Shown piece after piece: positions 9,795 through 14,991 of a stretch of DNA of 64,000 nucleotides. This DNA comes from Aminobacterium mobile DSM 12262 (GTDB lineage: Bacteria > Synergistota > Synergistia > Synergistales > Aminobacteriaceae). Below the pieces are notes generated by a model. That model worked only from the letters and a program-made list of their open reading frames with translations, was not told where the DNA came from and made no database searches. The translations under genes and the position numbers were made by a program. The stretch covers positions 62,001-126,000 of the forward strand of contig NZ_JAFZ01000001.1 in NCBI RefSeq assembly GCF_000526395.1, given 5' to 3'. Positions within the stretch are counted from its first letter, which is position 1. Each line of letters opens with the position of its first letter.

Positions 9795-10550
9795 TTACCA
9801 TGCAGGAATAATAACTGGATAGCCCTGCACATGATCGATTGTTACAGCAATATCATAAATCTCGGCAATGACGGAAGGAGAGACTTCCGCCCTTCGAAGA
9901 ATGTGGCGAACCTCTCCTTCTTTCATGAAAACAAAACGATCTCCATAGCGAAGAGCCATGGTAAGATCGTGAAGAGACATGACTGCGGAAATCCCATGTC
10001 CTAAGACAATATGTCTTAATGTTTCCATAATGTCGATTTGATTTTTTACATCAAGACTGCTAATGGGCTCATCGAGAAGCAGTAGTTTTGGTTCCTGCAC
10101 AAGAGCCCTGGCAATGGTTACTTTCTGTAACTCTCCTCCACTCATTTCATCAAGGTAGCGGAGAGCTAATGTTTCCAATCCAAGGGTATGAATAATAGCA
10201 TCTACTTTTTTTATATCCTTACCGGATAGACGCCATCCTACATAGGGGCGACGACCAAGGAGAATGGCATCAAAGGCCGTAAGGCGTACTTGTTCACAAC
10301 TTTGCGGCACATATCCCACGTTTTGGGCAATTTCTCGCCCCGACATATGCCGCATATTCCTATCCCCCAAAAAAACTGTCCCCTTTTGAGGTCGATTTAT
10401 GCCATTGAGACAACGAAGCAACGTCGTTTTTCCTGAACCGTTAGGGCCAAGGATCATCACGATTTCCTGTTTTTTCACATGAAGGGAAATATCTTTCAAT
10501 ATTGAACGGTTCCCATACCAAAAAGAGATGGATTTCGCTGAAAGAATCAA
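9795..10550 (-). CDS. FecE/BtuD-type ABC transporter ATP-binding protein
   Basis: 251 residues with Walker A GPNGSGKTT, Q-loop YVPQS, signature MSGGELQK, Walker B LLLLDEPISSLD and the H-loop SLHDL. The TTG start at 10550 has GGAGGGGG 7 bases upstream and overlaps the permease stop. It is the last gene of a three-gene importer (binding protein, permease, ATPase). The family moves ferric siderophores, haem, cobalamin or molybdate. Confidence 0.9.
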   Translation of the reverse strand: MILSAKSISFWYGNRSILKDISLHVKKQEIVMILGPNGSGKTTLLRCLNGINRPQKGTVFLGDRNMRHMSGREIAQNVGYVPQSCEQVRLTAFDAILLGRRPYVGWRLSGKDIKKVDAIIHTLGLETLALRYLDEMSGGELQKVTIARALVQEPKLLLLDEPISSLDVKNQIDIMETLRHIVLGHGISAVMSLHDLTMALRYGDRFVFMKEGEVRHILRRAEVSPSVIAEIYDIAVTIDHVQGYPVIIPAW

Positions 10551-11617
10551 GATCGCCCCCTCCTGGTAATAAGCCAGATAAAGAGAGGCGCTCCTAGAAA
10601 AGAAGTGAGGACGGAAACAGGCAAGACTCTGGGAGCCAACACAAGACGAGCTGCCATATCAGCCCCTAGGAGCAACAGAGAGCCTAATAGTGCAGATCCG
10701 GGAATAAGAAATCTATAGTCATCGCCTATAACTCGACGAACTATATGCGGACAGACAAGACCTACAAAACCTATAACCCCTACGAAGGCTACGATAACCG
10801 ACGAGATAAGAGAGGCAAAAACCATCCCGAACAATCGCACCTGCCGCACTTTGACCCCTAACCCCATCGCTGTTTCTTCCCCCGCATCAATAGCATTGTA
10901 ATCCCAGCGATGAGCAAAAAAGTAGAGAAGAGATATGAAAACAAAAGCAGTTATAATTGTTAATTCTCGCCACCCAGCCCGCGCCACGTCCCCAAAGGTC
11001 CAGAAAACCATGGCTGCAAGTTGGGTATCGTCAGCAAAATACTGTAAAAGCATGGTACCAGCCGTAAAAAGAGAGGCCAGCGCAACTCCTGATAAAGCCA
11101 TGGACTCAGGAGTTGCACCGCGAGTTCTAGACAAGAGAAGGATAACACCTGTAGCCACAAGGCTAGAGAAAAAAGCCGCTCCTGTAGCGGCGAAAGGAGA
11201 CAAAATAGAAACTGCATCAGATTGGCTGCTCAACATGCGTCCCGCCCCTAACACCATAACCGACAGAGCAGCCCCAAAAGCTGCTGCATTTGAAATGCCA
11301 AGGGTAAAGGGGGACCCTAGAGGATTTCGCAAAATAGATTGCATCACAGCTCCAGCAACAGAAAGGCCAGCCCCAGCAACAACAGCAGCCAGTGTTTGGG
11401 GTAAACGGACATTCCAGATAATAATAGCCCAACGCTTCGTATCCCCCCGGCCTAAAAGGGTAAAAAGCACGTCAAGAGGGGGAATACGTACGGCTCCCAC
11501 GGAAATGGAGAGTACAATTACGCCACAGAGCAAGACTCCCCCAGAAAAAAGCCAAAGAATCTTTCGCGCCTGATATTCCTTATAGAGAGGAGAAAGAGTT
11601 CCTTCTTCCAAGTGCAT
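10547..11617 (-). CDS. FecCD/BtuC-type ABC transporter permease
   Basis: 356 residues with about ten transmembrane segments. It has the FecCD family signatures: RLPQTLAAVVAGAGLSVAGAVMQ after the first helices, NPLGSPFTLGISNAAAFGA, and near the C-terminus GVIGFVGLVCPHIVRR, the coupling-helix region. It starts 12 bases after the binding protein stop and is coupled to the ATPase downstream. It forms the channel for a chelated metal or oxyanion. Confidence 0.92.
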   Translation of the reverse strand: MHLEEGTLSPLYKEYQARKILWLFSGGVLLCGVIVLSISVGAVRIPPLDVLFTLLGRGDTKRWAIIIWNVRLPQTLAAVVAGAGLSVAGAVMQSILRNPLGSPFTLGISNAAAFGAALSVMVLGAGRMLSSQSDAVSILSPFAATGAAFFSSLVATGVILLLSRTRGATPESMALSGVALASLFTAGTMLLQYFADDTQLAAMVFWTFGDVARAGWRELTIITAFVFISLLYFFAHRWDYNAIDAGEETAMGLGVKVRQVRLFGMVFASLISSVIVAFVGVIGFVGLVCPHIVRRVIGDDYRFLIPGSALLGSLLLLGADMAARLVLAPRVLPVSVLTSFLGAPLFIWLITRRGRS

Positions 11618-11629
11618 AGGTACACGACC

Positions 11630-12757
11630 CTATTTCAAGGATATTTTCGTGAAAGCTAAATCTTGAAATTGATCGTTCATTTCCTGGAAAACGTTCTTAC
11701 CTACAAGGAACCGGTAAATTTCATCGGCTTTTTGGGCAGGATCCACATCAAGAAAGCGGTCAGGATAGAGTACTTTCCCCACGAAGTAAGCATCTGCCAG
11801 AATAGATCCGAAATTTTGAGTATACCAATTGTAAGGCAACACCCCATAAATCTCCCCATTTTTAACGGCAGAAAGTTCCTGGTAGATAGGGTCATTTTTC
11901 AGTTGGGAAAGGGCATTCGTCCGATCATCAGCATTCAACGTGGAAAGATCGACAAAAATGACATCAGGATCCCACTCCAACAACTTTTCTTTCGACACAT
12001 CTGCGTGGGTATTCTTCTCCTCCTGCCCATTTTTAGGAGCCGCTACATGCACAGCACCTGTGAACACGAAAGGAGGATAGGCCAATTCGGTAGAACTGAA
12101 ACCATGAGGCCCACGAGAAGCAATGCCACCTACATAACAAGTTTTACGTTCTTGCGGAGCTATACCTTGCGTCCTTTTCTGTAGATCGGCAATATGTTCT
12201 TCGAAAAAAGAAACAACAGATTCTCCTCGCTCTTCATGCCCAATAATCTTCCCCATGAGTCGAAGGGAACTATAGAGCATTTCTCTACCATGTGCCAGGT
12301 TTCCATATCCTAACCCTATGACAGGGATACCTGTTTTTTCTTCAAGAACATGAACTGGAATTCCCGATTCCAGATAAGTTTTAAAAATTACCTGTGGAAG
12401 AGGCTGCACCCCTAAAATCAACTCCGGATTTGCATTCCCTCGAAACTCTCCCATCAACGGCAGGTCTTTCAACCATGGGTTGGCTAAGGCATAGGGGCGA
12501 GGACCGAAATTCCCTTTCTTTTCGTTATCTTCTACAGCAACGACTCTATTTTGCCCCTGAAGGTATACTAGAAGTCGTAAACATCCTGATCCTGAACATA
12601 TAACTCGTTCGGCGGGAACAGAAATCTGTATTTCTCTTCCAATAGAATCAGAAACCCTTATTGTATGTGTAGACTGCGCAAAACTTTCCCCTGCAAAAAA
12701 TAAAACCGCAAACGCACAAAAAACAATGACAAAAACAGTTGCCAATCTGCGCTTCAT
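11630..12757 (-). CDS. Periplasmic binding protein of a FecBCD-type importer
   Basis: About 375 residues. GGGAGG lies 8 bases before the ATG at 12757. It has a signal peptide (MKRRLATVFVIVFCAF..., cleavage after SFA). The cluster A helical-backbone fold (PF01497 type) is seen as VSDSIGREIQISVPAERVIC, then LLVYLQGQNRVVAVED and the second lobe LLEWDPDVIFVDLSTL. In this group the ligand can be a siderophore, haem, cobalamin, molybdate or tungstate (Haemophilus MolA is a precedent). Next to FmdE, a Mo/W or unusual metal ligand is plausible but unproven. Confidence 0.85.
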   Translation of the reverse strand: MKRRLATVFVIVFCAFAVLFFAGESFAQSTHTIRVSDSIGREIQISVPAERVICSGSGCLRLLVYLQGQNRVVAVEDNEKKGNFGPRPYALANPWLKDLPLMGEFRGNANPELILGVQPLPQVIFKTYLESGIPVHVLEEKTGIPVIGLGYGNLAHGREMLYSSLRLMGKIIGHEERGESVVSFFEEHIADLQKRTQGIAPQERKTCYVGGIASRGPHGFSSTELAYPPFVFTGAVHVAAPKNGQEEKNTHADVSKEKLLEWDPDVIFVDLSTLNADDRTNALSQLKNDPIYQELSAVKNGEIYGVLPYNWYTQNFGSILADAYFVGKVLYPDRFLDVDPAQKADEIYRFLVGKNVFQEMNDQFQDLAFTKISLK

Positions 12758-12850
12758 CAGCATAACCTCCCTTACGATTTTATAATAGCACGAAATAACA
12801 AAATCGTAGCACAGTGGAAATAAAAGCGCAAATAGCTTTACAAGAATTTG

Positions 12851-13969
12851 TCAGATATTTAAAGCTGAAAGCACCGCATCTGCCACTGCTTTTGCCGCAT
12901 GAGGGAAAGCGAGCTTTCTCGCGTTTGCCCGTATAATTTGCAATTTTTCAGGCGAACTATAGAGATCCCGGAGGTGGTGAATAGCTTCTGATGCAGAACG
13001 AGCCCAGATGCCTGCATTGTGGGATTCTATGTATTTGGCATTATTAATTTCCTGCTTTGGAATGGGATTAATCATAAGAAGAGGCGCTCCTGCACAAAAA
13101 GCTTCGCTTACTGTAAGCCCACCAGGCTTAGTAATCATTACATCTGCTTCAGCCATATAGTCGTAAAGATTCTCTACAAAACCAAGGAGTTGAAATTTGA
13201 CCCTGGAAGGAATCGTTATTCGTTCCAGTTGTTCTATAAGGTCTTCGTTCCGCCCGGCCACGACTGAAAGGGAAAGAGACATACCCGATTCTATAACTCC
13301 TTCAAGGATATCAAGGACAAGGGAGTTAGGAACACTACTTGCTACAAAAAGAATCGAAAATTCGTTGCTTTTATAGAACTGGCGGTCTCGATGGTAAAGC
13401 TCTCCGTATCTTTTCATCACTGGAATTCCAGACATAATAATTTTATGTTCAGGAATCCCTGCCTGTAGGAGATCTTCCTTCACAGAAGCTCCTCCTACAA
13501 AGTAAGAATCTACAAATTGGCTGATCCACATTCTATGAAGACCATAATCGGTAACAATACCGTATATTTTCCCTCTGTAGAGCCCCTGTTCCTTCATGTG
13601 AGACAAGACAGAGAGAGGGAAAAAATGGGTTCCCACACAAACATCTGGCTGGTTTTCAGTAAGATACCTCATAAACTTTTTCACATTCTCCATATTAATC
13701 TTTTCCAGCAGTCTTAAGACAGCGCTTTCTTCCCTATCTTGATCCGTCAATTCGTACATCACTTTACAAGCGATATGGGCATGTTCGCTCACGAAAGCAT
13801 AGACATCGCTATAGGACCATTTAAAGAGATCACTCGAAAAATCGAGCAGATCCATCATCACATTTGGAATTTTCCGAGCATCGAGTTCTTCTTGCACGGC
13901 TCTCGCCGCCGCTCGATGCCCACCACCAGCAGAAACATAAACAAGATGAACCGGTCTCACTTTTCTCAA
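12851..13969 (-). CDS. Processive diacylglycerol glycosyltransferase (UgtP/MGDG synthase family)
   Basis: 372 residues. The N-terminal MGDG-synthase domain begins with VSAGGGHRAAARAV, the glycine-rich loop of GT28 enzymes. The C-terminal GT-B half has the UDP-sugar site ADVMITKPGGLTVSEAFCAGAPLLMINP with the family's KPGGxT(x)E motif. It transfers a sugar from a UDP-sugar to diacylglycerol at the inner membrane face, making glycolipid. It has no signal peptide. No close operon partner is seen, as msrA lies 200 bases upstream on the same strand. Confidence 0.88.
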   Translation of the reverse strand: MRKVRPVHLVYVSAGGGHRAAARAVQEELDARKIPNVMMDLLDFSSDLFKWSYSDVYAFVSEHAHIACKVMYELTDQDREESAVLRLLEKINMENVKKFMRYLTENQPDVCVGTHFFPLSVLSHMKEQGLYRGKIYGIVTDYGLHRMWISQFVDSYFVGGASVKEDLLQAGIPEHKIIMSGIPVMKRYGELYHRDRQFYKSNEFSILFVASSVPNSLVLDILEGVIESGMSLSLSVVAGRNEDLIEQLERITIPSRVKFQLLGFVENLYDYMAEADVMITKPGGLTVSEAFCAGAPLLMINPIPKQEINNAKYIESHNAGIWARSASEAIHHLRDLYSSPEKLQIIRANARKLAFPHAAKAVADAVLSALNI

Positions 13970-14169: not shown

Positions 14170-14865
14170 CTAATCTCGATTTTGCACAACGTTTTTTAAA
14201 CGCCGCTGCCCCTCATCCGATAGCCCGAGACCAGGCACATCTTTTTCTAGCATAGAAAGAGTCCCTTCTCCGCCAAGATATCCATTCACACGAGCGACAG
14301 ACGTAGAATTCAAGAAATCTTCGTACTGTGGGTATTGAACTTGATACTCCCGCAAAAGTTCGCGATGAAGCCGAAGCCAATATTTTTGATGATAGGCTTC
14401 CGCAAGATAGAAAACCTTAAGAGGCATAATTTTTGTCACAACCGGGCGATTTCCTTGACGGTTCATAGCTTCCTTCCAAGCAAAAGCTTCTTCTCTTTGC
14501 TTTTCATCGCTATAAAAAATTGCCGACATATATTGTCGTGCAAAAGAAACACGAGTAGAGTCGTGACTCTCCGCGAAAATGGAAAGTAACTTTTTAAAAG
14601 AAATTACTTGAGAATCATAATCTATTTGAATGCTTTCTATATGGTTCCCCAGATTATGATACGTGGGGTCCTCTGTATCTCCCCCTGCATATCCAACACG
14701 TGTACTAAGAACCCCTCGAATGATCCCGAACCGGGCATCTGGTCCCCAGAATCACCCGAGGGCAAATGTAACAGTAGCACGGGAAGAGGCAGAGCTGGGT
14801 AAAACTATCCCTAAAATGGCAAGTACGGCTATAGAGATAATAAAAAGGCCTTTTAGGAAAATCAT
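14170..14865 (-). CDS. msrA: Exported peptide methionine sulfoxide reductase A, selenocysteine-containing
   Basis: 231 residues when the in-frame TGA at 14752-14754 (codon 38) is read as selenocysteine. GGAGGAG precedes the ATG at 14865. Residues 1-30 form a signal peptide (hydrophobic core FIISIAVLAILGIVL). The MsrA active site follows as ALG-Sec-FWGPDARFG, where nearly all MsrA have Cys. Further family motifs are in frame: TRVGYAGGDTEDPTYHN, HIESIQIDYD, QYMSAIFY and AYHQKYWLRLH. The frame has no other stop and the protein has no cysteine, so there is no resolving thiol. A stem-loop lies right after the UGA. Ordinary gene finders would start it at 14529 and lose the active site. Sec-MsrA is known in Clostridium-related bacteria and algae. 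It repairs oxidised methionine outside the cytoplasm. Confidence 0.87.
14709..14745 (-). promoter_or_regulatory. Candidate bacterial SECIS stem-loop downstream of the msrA UGA
   Basis: On the minus strand, 20 bases after the UGA, lies an apical loop GUU closed by CCCG/CGGG. Below it GAU pairs with AUC across one bulged G (14722-14739). A lower helix GGACC (14745-14741) with GGUUC (14713-14709) is possible. A G at the start of the apical loop and a UGA-to-loop distance of 16-37 bases match what is described for SelB-dependent bacterial SECIS elements. Confidence 0.6.
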
Positions 14866-14991
14866 TTTTCTCTCCTCCTTTTCTTTTCTTCACGCCCTTT
14901 AAAAATTATTTTACATGGAAAAGGATCTCTGGCATACCTATAAAAGAACTCTCTTTCTGCCATATTTTTAACCAATCGATTTTTTAACGCA

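Follow-up and report, generated by a model that had tools for sequence, protein, structure and literature searches.

On the reverse strand of the window, the 64,000-nucleotide stretch of Aminobacterium mobile DNA analysed here, lies a frame of 231 codons that is interrupted by a single TGA. When read through, the frame translates as MIFLKGLFIISIAVLAILGIVLPSSASSRATVTFALG-stop-FWGPDARFG... and continues to a TAG, the sole internal stop being the TGA at 14754-14752, between the ALG and FWG of what would be the active site of a methionine-S-sulfoxide reductase, MsrA. This is the codon at which an earlier note, made from the sequence, had looked for the catalytic cysteine and found TGA instead. As that note also had it, the frame is open on both sides of the TGA and begins behind a good ribosome site, with inspection of the sequence revealing AGGAGG upstream of the ATG. 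No Cys codon is present anywhere in the read-through frame, bearing out the description of the product as a one-Sec enzyme without a resolving thiol; this 1-Cys-type, thiol-free state is already known for the enzyme from Clostridium oremlandii (PMC4333827, PMC4479559). The features of the gene, msrA(Sec), are collected in Table 1.

Table 1. Features of msrA(Sec), with positions numbered along the window
Feature	Positions	Strand	Basis
msrA(Sec), 231 residues, selenoprotein methionine-S-sulfoxide reductase (highly likely)	14170..14865	-	read-through, PF01625, closest structures
Start ATG; stop TAG	14865-14863; 14172-14170	-	read-through translation
Shine-Dalgarno region AAGGAGGAG, 5' of the msrA ATG	14872..14880	-	sequence
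Predicted cleavable signal peptide MIFLKGLFIISIAVLAILGIVLPSSA, predicted cleavage around SSA-SS, after residue 26 or 27	14788..14865	-	sequence, hydrophobicity
MsrA catalytic domain, residues 31-165	14371..14775	-	PF01625; C. oremlandii active-site matches
Sec38, catalytic residue of GUFWG, in-frame TGA	14752..14754	-	reading frame; TGA in 23 other genomes
Bacterial SECIS apical hairpin CCCG-GUU-CGGG (alignment stem CCC-GGUUC-GGG)	14725..14740	-	synonymous freezing, covariation
MsrA_helical domain (PF20939), residues 185-220, C-terminal, typical of selenoprotein MsrA	14206..14313	-	profile + alignment

Plain ORF calling returns just a 119-residue piece downstream of the TGA (14170-14529), the fragment that standard annotation had been expected to report. 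Genes of this kind are prone to wrong annotation, since the half of the protein that bears the active site escapes standard gene callers. A scan of the 64-kb window for other TGA-interrupted frames gave none that was gene-like besides msrA. The contig to which the window belongs (C1) is part of a 2.11-Mb genome that is 99.7% complete. About 200 bp downstream of msrA and on the same strand is an MGDG-synthase-like glycosyltransferase gene (PF06925, 12851-13969 (-)). Further along are a gene for an FmdE-like protein with a dksA/traR zinc finger (PF02663, 9177-9791 (+)), the host being presumed to be a fermenting organism, and, adjoining it, an apparent iron-type ABC transporter at 9795-12763.

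In profile searches residues 31-165 match the PMSR family (PF01625; E-value 1e-39, 136.6 bits, cut-off 23.7), and the protein matches the MsrA model TIGR00401 at 113 bits (cut-off 108.1). The helical domain is matched with an E-value of 4.7e-5 and 23.5 bits, 0.2 below the curated cut-off of 23.7. The closest solved structures found by phmmer, 4u66, 7c13 and 4lwj-4lwm, align with the window MsrA without gaps over residues 31-227, and the alignment to 4u66 covers the helical domain. These structures are of C. oremlandii MsrA (CoMsrA), a protein of 209 residues with one Sec and no Cys, in which the helical domain is essential (PMC4333827). The CoMsrA active site, made up of GCFWG, Tyr47, Glu55, Gln89, Tyr90, His137 and Tyr140 (PMC4333827), is kept entire in the window protein at an offset of 22, as Sec38, Y69, E77, Q111, Y112, H159 and Y162. 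We consider it highly likely that the window gene encodes a selenoprotein MsrA of the 1-Cys type and of the helical-domain family; the enzyme kind, the C. oremlandii type of helical-domain Sec-MsrA, is already known. A divergent MsrA-like group among the relatives (L026-L030) has the helical tail and an altered active site, with the sequences GCFRR, SCFLS and GSFQD; one of these has serine at the catalytic place, and the proteins are possibly not reductases.

The hairpin downstream of the TGA

The first 60 nt 3' of the UGA align without gaps across 24 TGA genes, and the codon choice at codons -6 to +30 was compared with the codon usage of the same 24 genes. At each of codons +6 to +9 the synonymous codons vary far less than that usage would predict (p<1/5000 for each); codon +10 has p=0.002 and no other codon from -6 to +30 has p<0.01, although, as the sequences are related, the p-values of the hairpin tests are not those of independent trials. 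Codon +6 is GCC or TCC in all 24 genes, codon +7 is CGG or CAG, mostly the former, codon +8 is TTC in 22 and codon +9 is GGG in 23. Together the frozen codons make up CCC-GGUUC-GGG. The next pair in the stem, 19-31, covaries from G-C to U-A in seven genes, with U-G in one more, and in L004 the replacement of CGG by AGG is accompanied by that of GGG by GGA, leaving a stem that is shifted by one base and still paired. The freezing of these codons extends to TGA genes from other phyla; in the Cys homologues it is relaxed. At codon +9, GGG is found in 72 of 79 TGA genes versus 2 of 12 Cys genes (Fisher p=1.7e-7); it accounts for 24% of the other glycine codons in the TGA genes.

The loop of this hairpin is 20 nt from the UGA. 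The stem-loop that the earlier note had reported at this distance is thereby identified as CCCG-GUU-CGGG, an element of the bSECIS type conserved among the relatives. The published bSECIS model has an energy limit of -7.5 and a loop starting with G (PMC13188914). The msrA hairpin fits it, with a GUU loop, G first, at 20 nt, and with an energy that comes within the limit only if flanking bases are included (the 24-nt core gives -7.2 kcal/mol and a 50-nt stretch -14.4). The hairpin energy is no better than that of shuffled sequence (z -0.08 to -1.3) and is not counted as evidence for that reason, the proof being the conservation among relatives. An RNAalifold consensus in which the UGA lies inside a different stem was rejected, as its pairs hardly vary and the synonymous freezing marks the other hairpin.

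Selenocysteine machinery and the catalytic codon in relatives

A search of the genome for selA, selB, selD and tRNA-Sec had been proposed as a check, and all four are above their cut-offs. In profile searches selA, selB and selD were detected, with selA adjoining selB, and tRNA-Sec scores 67.7 bits (cut-off 47), with the anticodon TCA according to ARAGORN. The selD gene (L048, G000:C1:1102593-1103528) carries an in-frame TGA of its own, and SelD is therefore probably a selenoprotein as well. The Synergistota are a selenoprotein-rich phylum (PMC5029168), and the congener Aminobacterium sp. MB27-C1, with 13 known selenoprotein genes, has served as a test genome for deep-Sep (PMC12013277).

Among 101 genomes (the window genome and 100 relatives), 24 have an MsrA interrupted by a single TGA, in each case at the catalytic codon. 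In 22 of these selA is above the cut-off; in the remaining two it is either cut by a contig end (G076) or not seen in a genome that is 56% complete (G095). Among the 101, no well-sequenced genome lacking selA was found to have a TGA-MsrA. Contigs of GTDB genomes, when scanned, yielded 80 MsrA loci from many phyla, most of them with TGA. The catalytic codon of the homologues is Cys or UGA, the two states that had been anticipated, and never Trp. Cys versions of the same family from haloarchaea and Salinivenus (L107, L111-L116) cluster beside the bacterial Sec versions, a pattern that would fit the transfer of a Sec enzyme followed by its conversion to Cys.

A single base parts TGA from TGC or TGT, and the truncated ORF of the plain annotation is what would be seen if an ordinary Cys-MsrA had suffered a mutation or a sequencing error at this codon. 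Such a pseudogene or error is very improbable, however, given that 23 other genomes of the order and most of the 80 loci share the TGA at this codon, that the hairpin is under synonymous selection, that the genome has the Sec machinery, and that the rest of the frame is intact with all of its active-site residues. Reading of the UGA as Trp or another amino acid, through a changed code or a suppressor, is scarcely credible, and nothing was found in its favour: the homologues have Cys or UGA at this position and never Trp, the use of Sec by the enzyme from C. oremlandii is established, the genes selA, selB and selD and the tRNA-Sec are all present, and normal genes of the window also end in TGA, for example at 12853. 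The comparison of sequences indicates that TGA38 is a genuine selenocysteine codon and not a mutation, and we infer that selenocysteine is inserted there in the cell.

Predicted export and putative second starts

By a hydrophobicity rule the N-terminus of the window MsrA has a hydrophobic region scoring 3.3 over 12 residues, and an SSA-S site follows it. Cleavage at the predicted site would leave about 11 residues before the Sec, like the cytoplasmic homologues L074 and L098. Signal peptides are also found in most of the Synergistales relatives. The closest relative, the congener L002, is apparently without one, and localisation thus seems to be labile within the genus. Export and cleavage are predicted here from hydrophobicity and comparison, and on this basis the window MsrA is probably exported. 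It might instead be that the UGA is read as Sec and that the protein does not leave the cytoplasm, or is merely held in the inner membrane by an uncleaved N-terminal anchor; this would be in keeping with the apparently cytoplasmic L002, with a hydrophobic stretch that no linker separates from the first strand, and with the known enzyme, which works with cytoplasmic glutaredoxin (PMC4479559). We regard this as unlikely, since the AGGAGG directs the start ahead of the hydrophobic segment, no further start preceded by a ribosome site follows, and a plausible cleavage site lies just before the mature domain.

Exported Sec-MsrA had been thought rare by the earlier note; it turns out to be recurrent, with about half of 79 TGA members having a signal or lipoprotein peptide. 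By one rule 37 of these genes have a signal-like start, 36 are cytoplasmic and six are undecided; the rule overlooks some members (L059, L061 and L083, for example, have the look of exported proteins) and may be too generous with others (such as L106). Clear lipoproteins, with LSGC, LTGC and TSC, are found among the TGA members (L064, L082 and L084). On a 90-row maximum-likelihood tree, whose bootstrap is not fully settled, the exported state changes at least 17 times and the Sec/Cys state four times; the window gene and two congeners group with a support of 100/99.

In the linkers that join the hydrophobic stretch to the catalytic domain, 48 TGA genes have 23 in-frame ATG codons with a Shine-Dalgarno match of at least 5, under rules for the hydrophobic segment and the Shine-Dalgarno sequence that were fixed after some of the sequences had been seen. 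The two other frames of the same linkers together have one such ATG, and in the mature part a match of this strength accompanies 13 of 218 in-frame ATG codons. Synonymous recoding of the linkers gave a mean of 10.9 genes and a maximum of 17 over 300 runs, against 22 seen. These results are good evidence for the retention, in many relatives, of a second start from which a cytoplasmic form would be made, and they suggest that one gene gives rise to both exported and cytoplasmic forms.

Of 50 members with a hydrophobic N-terminus, 25 have an internal Shine-Dalgarno sequence and start codon, in frame and downstream of the signal or lipoprotein peptide, for example L004, L008, L056, L064, L066, L075 and L084; Desulfosarcina alkanivorans is one of the two-start relatives. 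The window msrA has no such second start. Within the genus, the window gene has the exported-type start only, that of MB27-C1 the cytoplasmic start only, and that of A. colombiense both.

Proposed mechanism and comparison with known systems

In the mechanism we propose, UGA38 would be decoded as selenocysteine by SelB and tRNA-Sec, aided by the hairpin 20 nt downstream, and the N-terminal signal peptide would carry MsrA out of the cytoplasm, where the enzyme would repair Met-S-sulfoxide in envelope proteins. The lack of a resolving thiol means that resetting of the oxidised Sec probably falls to a thioredoxin-like protein or proceeds through a dimer; the former would be fed from the membrane, by way of a CcdA/Sec-thioredoxin pair, and the latter would be transient. 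CoMsrA is reset by glutaredoxin and not by thioredoxin, and is able to dimerise through Cys16-Cys16 (PMC4479559). The glutaredoxin of the window genome has 78 residues and no signal peptide. The only MsrB (SelR) found in this genome (L132:1384-1854 (+), G000:C2:364269-364613) has a signal-like N-terminus, MRCTLLSLLVGSIIFFMATQTYA-A, and both of its Msr enzymes thus look to be exported, as far as their N-termini indicate.

Two CcdA genes are present in the genome, each adjoining a membrane-anchored thioredoxin-like protein. One of these thioredoxins has a UPAC (UxxC) motif with the TGA in frame (L136:1468-1872 (-), G000:C1:513437-513841) and is directly followed by a gene for a CcdA/DsbD-type membrane protein (G000:C1:512797-513372). 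Its TGA, which is kept in both of the other Aminobacterium genomes, is followed by a 6-bp hairpin, GUCCAA-AGUU-UUGGAC, with the loop 23 nt downstream. The pair is linked to MsrA by presence in the same genome and not by gene neighbourhood, and the co-occurrence of the two says nothing, because relatives of this kind of thioredoxin are found in 92 of the 101 genomes. That the CcdA/Sec-thioredoxin pair supplies electrons to MsrA outside the cytoplasm is a possibility against which we would lean slightly. It would seem close to evenly balanced whether, jointly, the compartment of helical-domain Sec-MsrA is set by the start, through tandem ribosome sites (exported or lipoprotein, then cytoplasmic) of which lineages have repeatedly kept one, with the exported Sec being reset by a CcdA-fed Sec-thioredoxin.

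Studies of the 1-Cys Sec-MsrA have so far dealt with an enzyme that has no signal peptide and depends on glutaredoxin for its recycling. If a strict anaerobe exports a selenoenzyme free of thiols, the question is which outside reductant resets the lone selenenic acid, and the family would provide a clean case of start-site choice switching the location of a protein in bacteria. In the part of the literature searched, neither an exported bacterial Sec-MsrA nor a bacterial two-start MsrA was found. As far as that search shows, the exported form seems to be new, and the repeated switching among exported, cytoplasmic and apparently two-start versions likewise seems not to have been described before.

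Methionine sulfoxide repair outside the cytoplasm, as proposed for the window MsrA, is also carried out by the exported PilB-type MsrA/MsrB and by the periplasmic MsrPQ system. PilB uses Cys and a fused thioredoxin-like domain and MsrP a molybdenum cofactor, and neither has Sec. With CoMsrA (Clostridium (Alkaliphilus) oremlandii OhILAs; PDB 4LWJ-4LWM, 4U66 and 7C13) the window protein shares the Sec at GUFWG, the absence of Cys, the catalytic and essential C-terminal helical domains and every active-site residue; CoMsrA, with its Sec at residue 16, begins at the catalytic domain, whereas the window MsrA has a predicted signal peptide before it. The nearest relatives, from Aminobacterium sp. 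MB27-C1 (PMC12013277) and A. colombiense (PMC3035294), are 61% and 60% identical over the matched part and have the TGA at the same codon and a Cys-free catalytic part. The MB27-C1 MsrA appears to be without the signal peptide predicted for the window protein, and that of A. colombiense has, in addition to a signal peptide, a second, internal ribosome site and ATG that the window gene lacks. In mammals or flies one gene yields forms of MsrA or MsrB that go to different compartments (PMC1431549). A single msr gene there serves two compartments by means of different N-termini, and the same seems to be true of the two-start relatives; the eukaryotic genes use alternative first exons, while the bacterial relatives have tandem ribosome sites and the window gene a single start.
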